The notes beneath the pieces are model-generated. The model saw nothing but the letters and a program-made list of their open reading frames with translations. It had not been told where the DNA came from and ran no database searches. 64,000 nucleotides of DNA from Channallabes apus (taxonomy: Eukaryota > Chordata > Actinopteri > Siluriformes > Clariidae). Positions 1-64,000 of the stretch are shown here, in pieces. The DNA lies in NCBI GenBank assembly GCA_030522415.1, contig CM060113.1, positions 7,439,967 to 7,503,966 on the forward strand, written 5' to 3'. The stretch's first letter is position 1; the number at the start of each line of letters is the position of its first letter. Both the position numbers and the translations under genes were made by a program.

Positions 1-158
1 ACATTTGAATGGTGCGAACGTTTGAAAGGAGGTCCAACATTTAGTGAGTGGAATGCCTGATCCTTGAAAATCTAAAGATAACTTAATTCTATAATAATTA
101 TTCATCAACACCACTTGCACATTACAGGACCATAAACATGCATTTTCCATATGTTTGG
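1..158 (+). mobile_element. mariner relic, left part, cut by window edge
   Basis: This stretch aligns by eye with the mariner derivative at 11110-11410: both share the segment ending in 'tgcctgatccttgaaaatc', the run 'caacaccacttgcac' and, as in the copy at 27235, 'ttccatatgtttg'. Homology stops at about 158 and appears to resume at 1839 in the expected place, so this is probably one copy split by later insertions. It is non-coding and decayed. Confidence 0.6.
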
Positions 159-228
159 GACAGTAGCCTTTAAAGCCACAAGTATTTTAGCCATTTTTTG
201 TTTTGCTGTTATTAATTTTTTTTATAAA

Positions 229-1290
229 CAATGGAACCTCGGATTCACGAAATTAATTAGTTCCTGGCGGTGCGGTGGTGTAGTGGTTAGCACTGTCGCC
301 TTGCACCTCCAGGGTCTGGGTTCGATTCCCCGGCCAGGCTCGATTCCCGTCTCTGTGTGCATGGAGTTTGCATGTTCTCCCCGTGCTTGGTGGGTTTCCT
401 CCGGGTACTCCGGTTTCCTCCCACAGTCCAAAGATATGCAGGTTAGGCTAATTGGCGTTCCTAAATTGCCCGTAGTGTGTGATTGGGTGTGTGAGTGTGT
501 GTATGTGTGTGTGCCCTGCGATGGATTGGCACCCTGTCCAGGGTGTACCCCGCCTAGTGCCCGAAGTCTCCTGGGATAGGCTCCAAGCCCCCCGCGACCC
601 TGAACACAGGATTAAGCGGTATAGAAAATGAATGAATGAATGAATGAATAATTAGTTCCTAAGTTCTGGCCATAACTCGAATTGGTCGTACATCGATTCA
701 GTTTTTTCCATGGGAATACTGGACATGTAAATAGAATGCATCCGTTCTCCATCACTATGAACTGTATTTAACTTTTGATGTATTTTTTTTAGATCACAAA
801 ATATAAAACAAAGTATGAAAAAGCCTAAATTATGCAAAAATAATACATCACTAAATATCAGTATAAACTGTACAGGAGAGAGCAAACACTTTATTTTTAC
901 ATGTACTGTTACTCGCTGACGTGAAGGGAATGGAGGAGAGGAAGATGGGTGGTGAGGAGGTTAGTGTTAGGAACGAGAGTCCCCTTCCGTAATAACATTA
1001 GGTAATTCTCCTTCAGGGGTTTTCTGCTTCTAGTTCGTACATGGCAGCTGCGTTAACTAAAAATCTATCCAGAGACATTTGTTCCTTCTGTGTTGCACAT
1101 TTGTGCAACTGCGCCGCACACAAAAAGGTACTGCGTTATCGTTCATAAGGTGTTGGCTCTGTTCGCCACAGTTTTGTTTGGATGATACTTCTCGGGAATG
1201 GCTTGACCGTCACTCCACATTGCACAAATTAATTTTATCATGTGACCTCAGACAGAGCAAAACTGATGCTGGGTGACGCACTCCTCACGC
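229..1290 (-). mobile_element. pogo/Tigger-like DNA transposon, 3' portion
   Basis: The end at 229 reads 'caatggaacctcgg', the usual start of fish pogo/Tigger inverted repeats. Read on the minus strand, about 1075-1000 gives a short SLDRFL-like stretch, typical of the C-terminus of Tigger transposases, followed by stop codons, an AATAAA signal near 890 and the AT-rich 3' end. A SINE (266-649) is inserted close to the terminal repeat. The 5' boundary near 1290 is uncertain. The copy is a decayed fragment with no usable reading frame. Confidence 0.55.
266..649 (+). repeat. tRNA-derived SINE (DANA/Mermaid-like), full length with TSD
   Basis: The head has a Val-tRNA-like part with an A box ('tggtgtagtgg') and a B box ('ggttcgattcc'). 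It is followed by the shared body and a (GAAT)n tail. An 11-bp target duplication, AATTAGTTCCT, flanks it at 255-265 and 650-660, so the copy is complete and fairly young. It sits inside the pogo/Tigger end. The open frames across it recur in every copy and are not genes. Confidence 0.93.
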
Positions 1291-1319
1291 CTTTGCTCAG
1301 CTGATAGCGGAAGCTTGGA

Positions 1320-1610
1320 ATGGTTTCTGGGTCGTGTTTCGAGAAAGTTTTAATGGGTTCAAAACTTTGGAGTGTTTCTGTGGGAATTCGTGTCTATTCA
1401 TTCTGTAGAGCATTTATGAGGTCAGACACTGATGTTGGACAAGAAGGCAATCTTCGTTACAGTTCATCCCAAAGGTGCTCGATAGGGTTAAGGTCAGGGC
1501 TCTGTGTTCGGTCCAGTCAAGTTCTACCACACCAAACTCATCAAACCATGTCTTTATAGTTCTTGCTTGTGCACTGGTGCAGAACTAGCACAGACACACA
1601 TCCCTTGTTT
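1320..1610 (-). pseudogene. Tc1-like transposase relic
   Basis: Minus-strand translation gives a damaged version of the Tc1 catalytic-domain segment HKARTIKTWFDEFGVVELDW, where the family normally continues into the SPDLNPIE motif carrying the last acidic residue. Here that continuation is shifted and broken. A similar plus-strand relic lies at 3330-3560. Confidence 0.6.
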
Positions 1611-1838
1611 TATTGTTGTTTTCAGTTGTTCCTATCATCAAAAAATTACAACATTTATAACCTTTTATAAAAGTAGTTCTACATGACTTATCCGAAAACC
1701 CAAATACACCGTTTAATGTCTGAAGCCTCTCCATTAACACACACCGACAAGGCTTCTAAATAAGCAATTTATTTTTTAAAACATCATTGACCTATGCTAT
1801 GTTGCCGGCATGTATGTGTTCTGTTTAAGTTTTAAGAG

Positions 1839-2066
1839 TTAAAGGAGTTCCTGGGAGGCCAGACGTGGAGCAGGCAGTCCTATCATGGCAATGGCGTAAT
1901 GAGAAATCTTTCTGCCTTGATGGTATCCAAGCACTAGTGAAACCCTGGGATAAGTGCATTAGTGGAGCAGGGGATTATATAAAGAAATACAGGGAGTTTT
2001 TTACTCTCATAACTGTTCTGTTATTCTGCACAATCAGAAGCTCAGGTTTGACTTGAACCTCCCTCG
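1839..2066 (+). mobile_element. mariner relic, 3' end
   Basis: The translation contains a mariner C-terminal signature (DGIQALVKPWDKCISGAGDYIKK, broken into short pieces here), followed by the terminal repeat 'aggtttgacttgaacc' and a TA at 2067-2068. It is probably the right half of the copy that begins at 1-158. Confidence 0.7.
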
Positions 2067-2069
2067 TAG

Positions 2070-61498: not shown

Positions 61499-61499
61499 T

Positions 61500-62335
61500 A
61501 TTTTAGATCATTAGGAAGAAAAACATTTCTAACTGTAGGTAAGGCACTAATGTTTATTATTAATTTTTGTATAATGTAACCAGGACGTGAAGATCAAAAT
61601 GTACCGAAATGAGGTTCATTATGTGAATCATACTAAAAAGCAGAAATTACAGAGCCTGGCTAATGCATTAAAGCAGCAATCATAAAACATGCGCCATATT
61701 ACTTTTCAGCATACTTGATTTAATAGGTAAATTTTCTGCTATGAGATAAGAGGATAAAAATAACCAGAGTCACACGGTCACCTTGAAATATTATAAATAT
61801 GAGTATTTTCCCACCAGAAATTATTCTTTATTACAAATATAGAATGTGGACTGCTGAGATGAACAGTTTACACCATATTTATTAGTCAGTACAAATAATG
61901 ATATAAATATGATTAGACATATAATTCATGTGTTTAAGATAAGTGTTTTAACCCTTAATTGGGTAACGAACCACATGTGGTAACTGTGTGCCAGGACCTC
62001 GTACCTACATATATATATATTTCCGGTTTCACTGAATCAGTCCGGGAGCACAATGAAGAAAAAAATGTTGTTCCTGTAAAGCTGTCTAATTGGTGAATAA
62101 TCCTAATTTTCGGGAAAATCCTCAACAAAACAGTTCACAATGGAAGACAGTTCTGGGACAAAATAATGTCCCCTCACGATTTAAAGGCGCAGAGACATCA
62201 CTGTTACATTTCACATTTCAATGTAAGAGTCATTTCCACAATCGCCGTTTCTGGCCATATTATGACAGTCTGGGCAAAGGGGCCAGATTTTATCAAGTGG
62301 ATTGGTATGCATTACATTGTATATTCATGTCAAAG
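61500..62335. other. intronic sequence, mostly unrecognised
   Basis: No coding similarity. The part after about 61966 may belong to the pogo-like fragment listed next. Confidence 0.4.
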
Positions 62336-62339
62336 GCGT

Positions 62340-62430
62340 ACAAGACTCACTTTGTTGGACTTAAGAACAAATCCAACTTAAGAACTCCCGGAACAGAAAT
62401 CTCGTTCATAAGTCGGAGTCAGGGTGTGTA
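62340..62430 (+). repeat. pogo/Tigger-type end fragment
   Basis: 'gttggacttaagaacaaatc' and 'gttcataagtcggagtcagg' resemble the 'aactcgacttaagaac' type ends of fish pogo elements. Boundaries are uncertain. Confidence 0.4.
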
Positions 62431-62519
62431 TACTGTATACTACTTTGTGACTATAACCATTGTTACAAGTGCTATAGAAATGGAATTTAATTAAATTGAG
62501 CTCCTAAGTAGATGGCTTG

Positions 62520-63525
62520 TTGGCTCTGCGGTTAGCACTGTCGTCTTTCAACTACAGGGTCCGGGTTTGATTCCCAGCCAGATTCGATTGCCGCCTCTGT
62601 GTGTATTGAGTTTGCATGTTCTTCCTGTGATTAGTGTGTTTACTCAGGGTACTCAAGTTTCCGCTCACAGTCCAAAGTAGAGACATGCGTGGGACAGATT
62701 TTTCAGTCCTGCTCAAGCCCGCTCCCGCAAGATTCTGTCCCGCTCCCGCCCGCAAAAATTTATATTATTTTCTCCCGCTCCCGCCCGCAGTATTCAAGTT
62801 TTGTCCCGCTCCCGCTCGCAAAATCTGGCAGGTAAACATATATATAGTTTTATTTTTATGGCTTCTTCCCGCTACTCTGTTATTTGTTTCAATTGCTTCC
62901 CTTTTGAGTATATATAAAAAAGAAATGGAAAATAGTTTGATTAAATGGAATGATGAACATGGACACGAACGAGGAGCTTTTCAGAACATAGAAATACAAT
63001 CAGAACTGTTAGAAATAGGCTAATAATTTTGCAATGAAACAAAATAATAATAAACGTTGATTTCTCAAGTAATCAAACAGAAAAGCATTTGGCCAAATAC
63101 TGCTTCAGAACGTTAGGCCTTTTTGCCTTCAGCAATGTCCAAACATTGAACATAAGTTCAATAAATAAAAATAAGTTGTGGTTAGTCGTTCTGGTTGCTT
63201 TTGTGCAGTAGATAAATAATATAGTATTTGTTTTCAATAAATACATTTTGAGATAATTCCATTTTGCGGGAGTCCCGCGATTAATTTTCCCGCATTCACA
63301 CATCAAATCTTGGCCCGCGCCGCACTCCGTGCGCTGGGTCCCGGGGATCCCGCGGTACTCTCTAGTCCAAAGACCTGCAAATTAGGCTAAATTCCGAGGG
63401 GGGCTGGAGCCTATCACAGGAGACTTATATCTGAGGGTGTACCCCTCATGTCCTAAGTATCCTGGGATAGGCTCCGGCCCCCTCAACCCTGTATACAGAA
63501 TAAAGCAGTATAGACAATAATGATG
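62520..63525 (+). repeat. tRNA-derived SINE split by a hAT-type element
   Basis: Head and first body part at 62520-62677 ('ctgcggttagcactgtcgtc'), second part at 63365-63525 ('atcctgggataggctccggc', 'agcagtatagacaataatg'). Diverged copy. Confidence 0.85.
62678..63364. mobile_element. non-autonomous hAT-type element, 687 bp
   Basis: The ends TAGAGA and TCTCTA are flanked by an exact 8-bp duplication GTCCAAAG (62670-62677 and 63365-63372), both taken from the SINE. The left arm is rich in 'cccgctcccgcccgc' motifs and the right arm in 'tcccgcg' motifs. No transposase frame. Confidence 0.85.
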
Positions 63526-63529
63526 AATT

Positions 63530-64000
63530 TGCAAGTAGTGCTTGAAATAAGTAAAGATGTCCAGAAATATCTAGGTTTAATAATCATATAATTAGTTTAT
63601 AGGAAATACAGTACTACTGTAGATACTGTACATTCAGCTAAATTCAAGCCATTTTTGCAGTACACATACTGTACAGTAGCTGCAAGTAGCAATCTTTGAA
63701 TATTCCCAGCACCACTTTGCACACAGGCTGTAATACTCAATTACTGCTATAATGGCTCCTTTACACTTTTTTCTTTTTATGATTGATCTTTTATCCATGT
63801 TCGCTGCAGTTTTCTCACATTTCCATCTCTCTCTCTCTCTGATTCTCATTCCCTTTTCCTCATTTGCTTTTTTTTTTTAGTTTTGTCATTTTCTAACATT
63901 TTACATTTACAGTTGAATCAATATCCACTTCAGTCTACTCTGTATTCTAATAGGTTCAAAATTTGGTTACTAACAAGAAATTAAGAACAGCATTTTATTT
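63530..64000. other. intronic sequence to window end
   Basis: No coding similarity. It contains five TACAGTA/TACTGTA heptamers between 63607 and 63678, the densest cluster in the window. Confidence 0.5.

Follow-up and report, generated by a model that had tools for sequence, protein, structure and literature searches.

Within 64,000 nucleotides of the genome of the fish Channallabes apus (contig CM060113.1, positions 7,439,967 to 7,503,966; this whole stretch is referred to as the window), the heptamer TACAGTA and its complement TACTGTA form a field of 105 sites spread over positions 1–64000 without assigned strand, about 92 of them above chance. Most of these heptamers are very probably excision footprints of Tc1-type cut-and-paste transposons with CAG...CTG ends. 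The original prediction, made from the letters of the window, had offered this reading and had supposed that the stretch absorbed on the order of a hundred excisions. The latter is supported by the number of heptamers above chance, the former by paralogous repeat copies, to which a bare TA is the better fit at 24 of the 26 sites that could be decided, and by insertions listed blind to the motif, among which 13 of 13 with the form TA-NNN-TA read CAG or CTG.

In the proposed mechanism, an element would enter at a TA and thereby duplicate it, the transposase would excise it again by cutting three nucleotides inside each end, and the two resulting three-nucleotide 3′ overhangs would be joined with one central mismatch. 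Resolution of this mismatch in either direction would convert TA into TACAGTA or TACTGTA with a net gain of 5 base pairs (bp), and every scar would add one TA as a new target. An A:A or T:T mismatch where the overhangs meet accounts for the choice between an A and a T centre. The scars presumably go back to excisions in the germline that became fixed by drift in the course of a long time, and their sources might comprise the resident CAGTGG Tc1 family as well as older CAG-ended families. According to passages of the respective reports, TAC(A/T)GTA is the footprint of Sleeping Beauty (PMC3432063, PMC4378557), in which CAG is the remnant of the transposon ends and non-homologous end joining does most of the repair (PMC3432063, PMC8151067). 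How the element is cut out and how the ends are joined is adopted from this Sleeping Beauty work and from established knowledge, while the excess, the insertion and its specificity were computed here.

Heptamer excess and the inserted five base pairs

The scan of the window (G+C content 39.7%) found 55 TACAGTA and 50 TACTGTA, compared to 13.2 expected from an order-2 Markov model; the original prediction had counted about 100 against a chance estimate of roughly 13, and both figures hold. Lower chance counts were obtained with an order-1 Markov model (9.6) and as the mean of 420 strand-folded letter permutations (9.7). Shuffled heptamers are not equally frequent, the motif ranking first of these 420 permutations ahead of the next non-overlapping class with 28 occurrences, and among the 32 TA-NNN-TA classes in the window it is followed by TAAAATA with 46. 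In the unmasked window, it is the 7th of all 7-mers by count and the 5th by z-score, exceeded only by simple-repeat 7-mers. After masking of tandem repeats it becomes the top 7-mer by z-score (104 versus 12.4 expected; next CACACAC) and the sole strongly enriched TA-NNN-TA class. The split of the central base, 55:50 in the window (P 0.70) and 91:79 in a 200-kilobase (kb) genome sample described below, fits the near-equal A and T centres expected of footprints. TACAATA/TATTGTA, set beside the motif for comparison in the original prediction, occurs at chance level in the window (16 observed versus 15.6 expected), and TACATA, TAAGTA, TACAGCTGTA, TACCATA and other footprint shapes show no clear excess there. 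The palindrome TACATGTA, shaped like a 4-bp footprint that Tc1 leaves in worms, is found at 5 sites versus 2.1 expected in the window (10 and 4.2 counting both strands), a difference that may be due to chance.

The heptamers are unevenly distributed with respect to the age of the surrounding DNA. Young insertions, defined as the four elements named as such in the original prediction plus a minisatellite at 38170–39181 (13,409 bases altogether), contain exactly three heptamers (52036, 55309 and 59033), as against the "about 3" previously counted and 0.8 expected from local dinucleotides, and the remaining 50,591 bases contain 102 versus 8.4 expected (young versus rest, Fisher P 1e-7). Because 102 of 105 fall outside the young insertions, nearly all of the excess sits in older DNA. 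Judged by eye, the sequences flanking the 105 sites bear no relation to one another, with the exception of some brief AT-rich resemblances (e.g. 2695/8425, 8679/19060), and this is an argument against a repeat family and against the ends of miniature inverted-repeat transposable elements (MITEs). When oriented, the flank columns read ATA before and TAT after the heptamer; out of six positions, 2.76 match this pattern at heptamers, 2.01 at other TA-NNN-TA sites and 1.90 at non-microsatellite TA sites, and the bias is also present in the genome sample. Sleeping Beauty prefers an AT-rich palindromic, ATATATAT-like target, and the heptamer flanks display the same kind of preference.

Clustering of the heptamers is modest, and attractive AT-rich sites may account for it: adjacent heptamers lie within 60 bp in 21 cases, compared to 14 for randomly chosen TA positions (95% range 8–21), and six pairs spaced by 5 bp occur in the window versus 2.6 expected (P 0.046). 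These pairs, or double scars, fit repeat events at one TA.

Paralogous repeat copies, used in place of a sister species, tell the ancestral state of a site. The test was applied to the window plus 28 genome loci (L001–L028; 288 kb) with a stricter cut-off than in its window-only version. Among 318 heptamers, 30 had a paralog, which was empty in 24 cases (i.e. fitted better after removal of the inner 5 bp), intact in two and tied in four. The control of 1427 other TA-NNN-TA sites provided 164 with a paralog, namely 15 empty, 143 intact and 6 ties. Counting decided sites, 24 of 26 heptamers are therefore empty versus 15 of 158 controls (Fisher P 9e-18), and the 5-bp length difference that the original prediction expected between relatives is matched between paralogs, the shorter copy fitting a bare TA. 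L001–L008 had been picked by their double-footprint pattern and are included in the paralog test, the insertion lists and the element search but kept out of the density counts; leaving out their four heptamer rows, 21 empty, 2 intact and 3 tied sites of 26 remain. The 24 empty sites are partly non-independent, as 47882 overlaps 47887 and L015:4730 overlaps L015:4735, and one short interspersed element (SINE) supplies many of the controls. In the window-only test, a spanning paralog was available for 11 of 105 heptamers (8 empty, 2 intact, 1 tie) and for 26 of 313 other TA-NNN-TA sites (5 empty versus 21 intact). A sharper contrast at paralogs of at least 60 bits (8:0 versus 0:21) was selected with the data already known and is given no weight.

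The individual putative footprints in the window illustrate this pattern. All paralogs found are empty at 3942–3948 (plus strand; 2 of 2), 31230–31236 (minus; 3 of 3) and, with a single paralog each, at 14951–14957 and 43666–43672 (both minus) and 18377–18383 and 22290–22296 (both plus). At 11582–11588 (minus) three of four paralogs are empty and one is intact, and at 33995–34001 (plus) two of three are empty by a weak margin. The heptamers at 11354–11360 (minus; 3 of 3 paralogs empty, among the repeat copies one at 45748–45846 without heptamer) and 45871–45877 (plus; 2 of 2) are reciprocal, each copy of one repeat being scarred where the other is empty. Two further candidates reside in SINE copies. 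For 32084–32090 (plus), the 24 further copies found favour a bare TA without exception; this SINE is taken to be tRNA-derived because two of the other copies gave tRNA hits in Rfam, and a fixed TA site within the SINE was defined by the pattern CCAGGGTGTANNNTACCCCGCC. For 47758–47764 (plus), 17 of 18 other copies are empty and one is intact, and the same SINE copy carries a double footprint, TACAGTACAGTA, at 47882–47893 (plus), for which the removal of one 5-bp unit improves the score against 18 and 19 of 20 further copies. A 22-mer of the SINE had no match in the collections viral_contigs and genome_contigs. Other apparent double footprints, consisting of two heptamers 5 bp apart without assigned strand, are located at 4083–4094, 13704–13715, 21573–21584, 46372–46383 and 63667–63678, and one heptamer (27851–27857, plus) is centrally placed in a (TA)n array.

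A second view is provided by clean insertions between paralogs, listed in the window and the 28 loci without reference to the motif. Of 45 five-bp insertions, 13 have the form TA-NNN-TA, and all 13 (one of them from L004) contain CAG (9) or CTG (4). The other 32 lack this form; as read from the list, 15 fall at one recurrent SINE site (TGCAT/ATGCA), which probably reflects a deletion in a partner copy. Over lengths of 2–20 bp there are 20 TA..TA insertions, composed of the 13 canonical footprints, two exact double footprints among the three insertions of 10 bp, and five others (C; AA; CG; CAGGCGTG; one of 14 bp). Canonical single or double footprints hence make up 15 of 20, in a test that favours clean insertions. 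A first, window-only list contained four five-bp insertions, three of which were the footprint. The claim that footprints are a major source of 5-bp insertions in this lineage fits the share of 13 in 45, given a small sample.

Genome-wide extent and age of the scars

The assembly comprises 1,164,683,209 bases in 93 contigs. Across it, a 15-mer containing the double footprint matches 203 + 201 = 404 times, compared to 2 + 3 = 5 for its reversed control. The genome sample of 20 stretches of 10 kb from six contigs (L009–L028) contains 170 heptamers versus 30.8 expected, with 2–20 in every stretch. Both results support the proposal of a genome-wide scar track. The heptamer again ranks first of 420 permutations (next non-overlapping class 80), and in the unmasked sample simple-repeat 7-mers exceed it in z-score. 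In the window and sample combined with tandem repeats masked (the 255-kb set), it is the first among 7-mers with 259 versus 43 expected. The masked sample density amounts to 7.75 per 10 kb (bootstrap 95% 5.95–9.6); of the 170 heptamers counted without masking, about 0.7 per kb lie above chance. Chance-subtracted scaling, extrapolated from the sample, yields roughly 0.5–0.9 million footprints in the genome. The sample excess of 139 heptamers divided by four CAGTGG Tc1 copies corresponds to about 35 scars per resident copy, a ratio of small numbers, which agrees with the earlier notion that excisions outnumber visible Tc1 copies for the one CAG-ended family counted. We consider it likely that the 1.16-gigabase (Gb) genome keeps germline scars of Tc1 excision numbering about half a million to a million, in this proportion to the resident copies, so that the lasting legacy of these transposons would be their departures rather than their presence, and that the scars amount to a record of transposition which spans the genome, can be dated and includes repeated events at a single TA.

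Decayed footprints should be visible as one-transition neighbours of the heptamer. In the 255-kb set, these neighbours number 362 versus 287 expected, and the transversion neighbours 576 versus 559. In the neighbour sums, TACCGTA/TACGGTA, being the same sites on two strands, were counted once per class, and TACAGTG is inflated by resident Tc1 ends. The ratio of near-match excess to intact excess is 0.14–0.33 in the window (up to 0.97 at the lowest background) and 0.42–0.60 in the 255-kb set; on the assumption of uniform ages, these values translate, with wide error, into a maximum divergence of about 4–10% and 13–20%, respectively. The decay halo points to scars of various ages, perhaps up to 13–20% divergence with a large error, and such a range would imply more than a young CAGTGG burst alone.

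Source families, competing explanations and other features

The window contains one convincing CAG-ended, TA-flanked element according to a paired-end search, a Tc1 at 11953–13549 (minus strand) with an open transposase frame of 340 codons, which is eligible as a representative of the source family. Its predicted product carries PF25787 (HTH_SB), PF01498 (a Tc3-type helix-turn-helix, HTH) and PF13358 (DDE_3), and its two ends are alike over 188 bp (89%). By these predicted features, an HTH_SB and a DDE domain, a length of about 340 amino acids and inverted repeats of about 200 bp, it is Sleeping Beauty-like. Three more full-length copies and one edge-cut copy of this CAGTGG family are present in the genome sample; the four full-length copies are 96–98% alike, all flanked by TA, and two of the four have the 340-codon frame. 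Close relatives of the transposase occur in many fish, among them Polypterus, Nothobranchius, Hemibagrus and Cirrhinus, as judged from the best 120 of 5894 matches. The CAG-ended Tc1 at L015:1210–2831 is inserted at a TA beside TACAGTA (flank ...tacagtaTA|CAGTGG), an arrangement that would follow if scars served as new TA targets.

A second Tc1 in the window, at 58437–59995 (plus), has CAA...TTG ends and a broken gene with HTH and DDE in different frames. The coordinates predicted for both Tc1 elements proved correct, each starting and ending at TA target duplications. A CAA-ended Tc1 is expected to leave TACAATA/TATTGTA, and footprints of this element in the window were rejected by the chance-level count of TACAATA given above. 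A frame at 3318–3656 resembles by eye a fragment of a Tc1 transposase and adjoins sequence ending in ...CACTATATGGACAAAAG; it has no Pfam match.

The footprint does not discriminate between sources, and the family behind the scars is identified only in part. As a tentative possibility, the scars are real but derive mainly from other CAG-ended, TA-inserting elements (pogo/Tigger-like elements, MITEs or older Tc1) and not from CAGTGG Tc1. The footprint reads only the outermost three bases, four of eight TA-flanked CAG inverted-repeat loci are non-CAGTGG (L012, L013, L021 and L028; the CAG repeats of L012 and L021 lie within longer inverted repeats), and the halo suggests scars that are on average older than the 2–4% divergence among CAGTGG copies. 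However, CAGTGG accounts for the other four of the eight loci (window, L015, L017 and L027), all of them complete and two of the four with open transposase frames.

Other explanations dispense with excision altogether. It is very improbable that the heptamers are ends of short MITEs or a motif within a repeat family. By reasoning alone, a MITE of the form CAGTA...TACTG would give a heptamer at each end, and one AT-rich candidate pair exists at 2695–3608 with 18 of 25 end letters matching; however, no further pair reaches 17 of 25 in the window, and in the paralog test 24 of the 26 decided sites differ by 5 bp. MITE ends as a source were rejected on the basis of the unrelated flanks and of the paired-end search, which returned only the Tc1 and this AT-rich pair. 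Equally improbable is a selected or biased motif, be it a protein-binding site, a mutational bias or a by-product of simple repeats. The high count by itself is compatible with it, but the bare TA fits better at the same 24 sites, 102 of 105 heptamers are outside young insertions, and the decay halo is transition-biased. The mouse genome has a size of 2.7 Gb. Passages of PMC4378557 report more than 300,000 such heptamer sites in it, which at this size corresponds to a density of about 0.1 per kb. A local oddity of this intron, to which the roughly twofold unmasked density of the window (1.64 versus a sample mean of 0.85 per kb) might point, can hardly be entertained in view of the 2–20 heptamers per 10 kb in all 20 stretches from six contigs, 170 versus 30.8 expected, and the 404 versus 5 matches of the double-footprint 15-mer.

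Several observations weigh against attributing most heptamers to Tc1 excision. All length evidence comes from paralogs within one genome, and a usable paralog exists for only 30 of 318 heptamers. Two decided sites, 59033 and L020:5632, share the heptamer with their paralog; both belong to coding sequence of the CAA-ended Tc1, and the stretch around 59033 including the heptamer recurs in L008 and L020. In the looser window-only test, the AT-rich sites 2695 and 8425 matched each other intact. Young insertions carry three heptamers with an expectation of 0.8. One-mismatch neighbours are barely raised, and not beyond noise, when the window is considered alone (252 versus 239), which makes the age estimate loose. 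Finally, the excess of TACAATA (72 versus 47.7) and of TACCGTA/TACGGTA (20 versus 9.2) in the 255-kb set is not fully explained; both may represent decayed CAG scars or scars of other families.

Some further features of the window were recorded. The minisatellite at 38170–39181 consists of 48 copies of a 21-bp unit, CTACTAATACCCCTATCTCAC, and is open over more than 350 codons in two plus frames and one minus frame. A hAT-like open frame of 715 codons (28872–31019, minus strand) is apparently part of a young insertion. Exon-like frames are found at 16858–17319, with a Kazal domain, and at 49212–49718, without Pfam match; we take both to resemble follistatin-like 4/5, which fits the earlier view of the window as mostly an intron of such a gene.

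Implications and comparison with known systems

Copy number records the transposons that stayed, whereas footprints record those that left. If past excisions can be read from the heptamer count, it becomes possible to measure in any fish genome how often and when DNA transposons were excised in the germline and how faithfully the breaks were repaired, and to compare lineages in this respect. Footprints would also constitute a recognizable class of 5-bp indels that shift the frame in exons and are invisible to similarity-based repeat annotation, and, by creating TA sites, the scars are themselves new targets. The excision chemistry is already known from Sleeping Beauty, while its apparent scale in this genome seems to be without report in the open-access literature; a genome-wide tally of Tc1 scars in fish was not found there among the matches listed.

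A survey of rice likewise inferred past excisions from length differences between relatives (passages of PMC4423477). In the passages concerned, however, only 8 of 94 rice excisions left exactly two copies of the target site, the others showing deletions and/or filler, whereas 15 of 20 TA..TA insertions are canonical here in a test favouring clean ones. ZB, an active fish Tc1, shares the Sleeping Beauty-like target preference and leaves footprints of 0–3 bp (passages of PMC7913693), which were measured in cells; the passages of this report contain no count of footprints in a fish genome. The closest likeness is to Sleeping Beauty itself, for which passages of PMC3432063, PMC4378557 and PMC8151067 describe the same seven bases, the TA target, the 3-bp remnant and either central base. 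In contrast to these studies, which were carried out in cultured cells and mouse tumours, the footprint is encountered here as a standing component of a natural genome, at about 0.7 per kb above chance.

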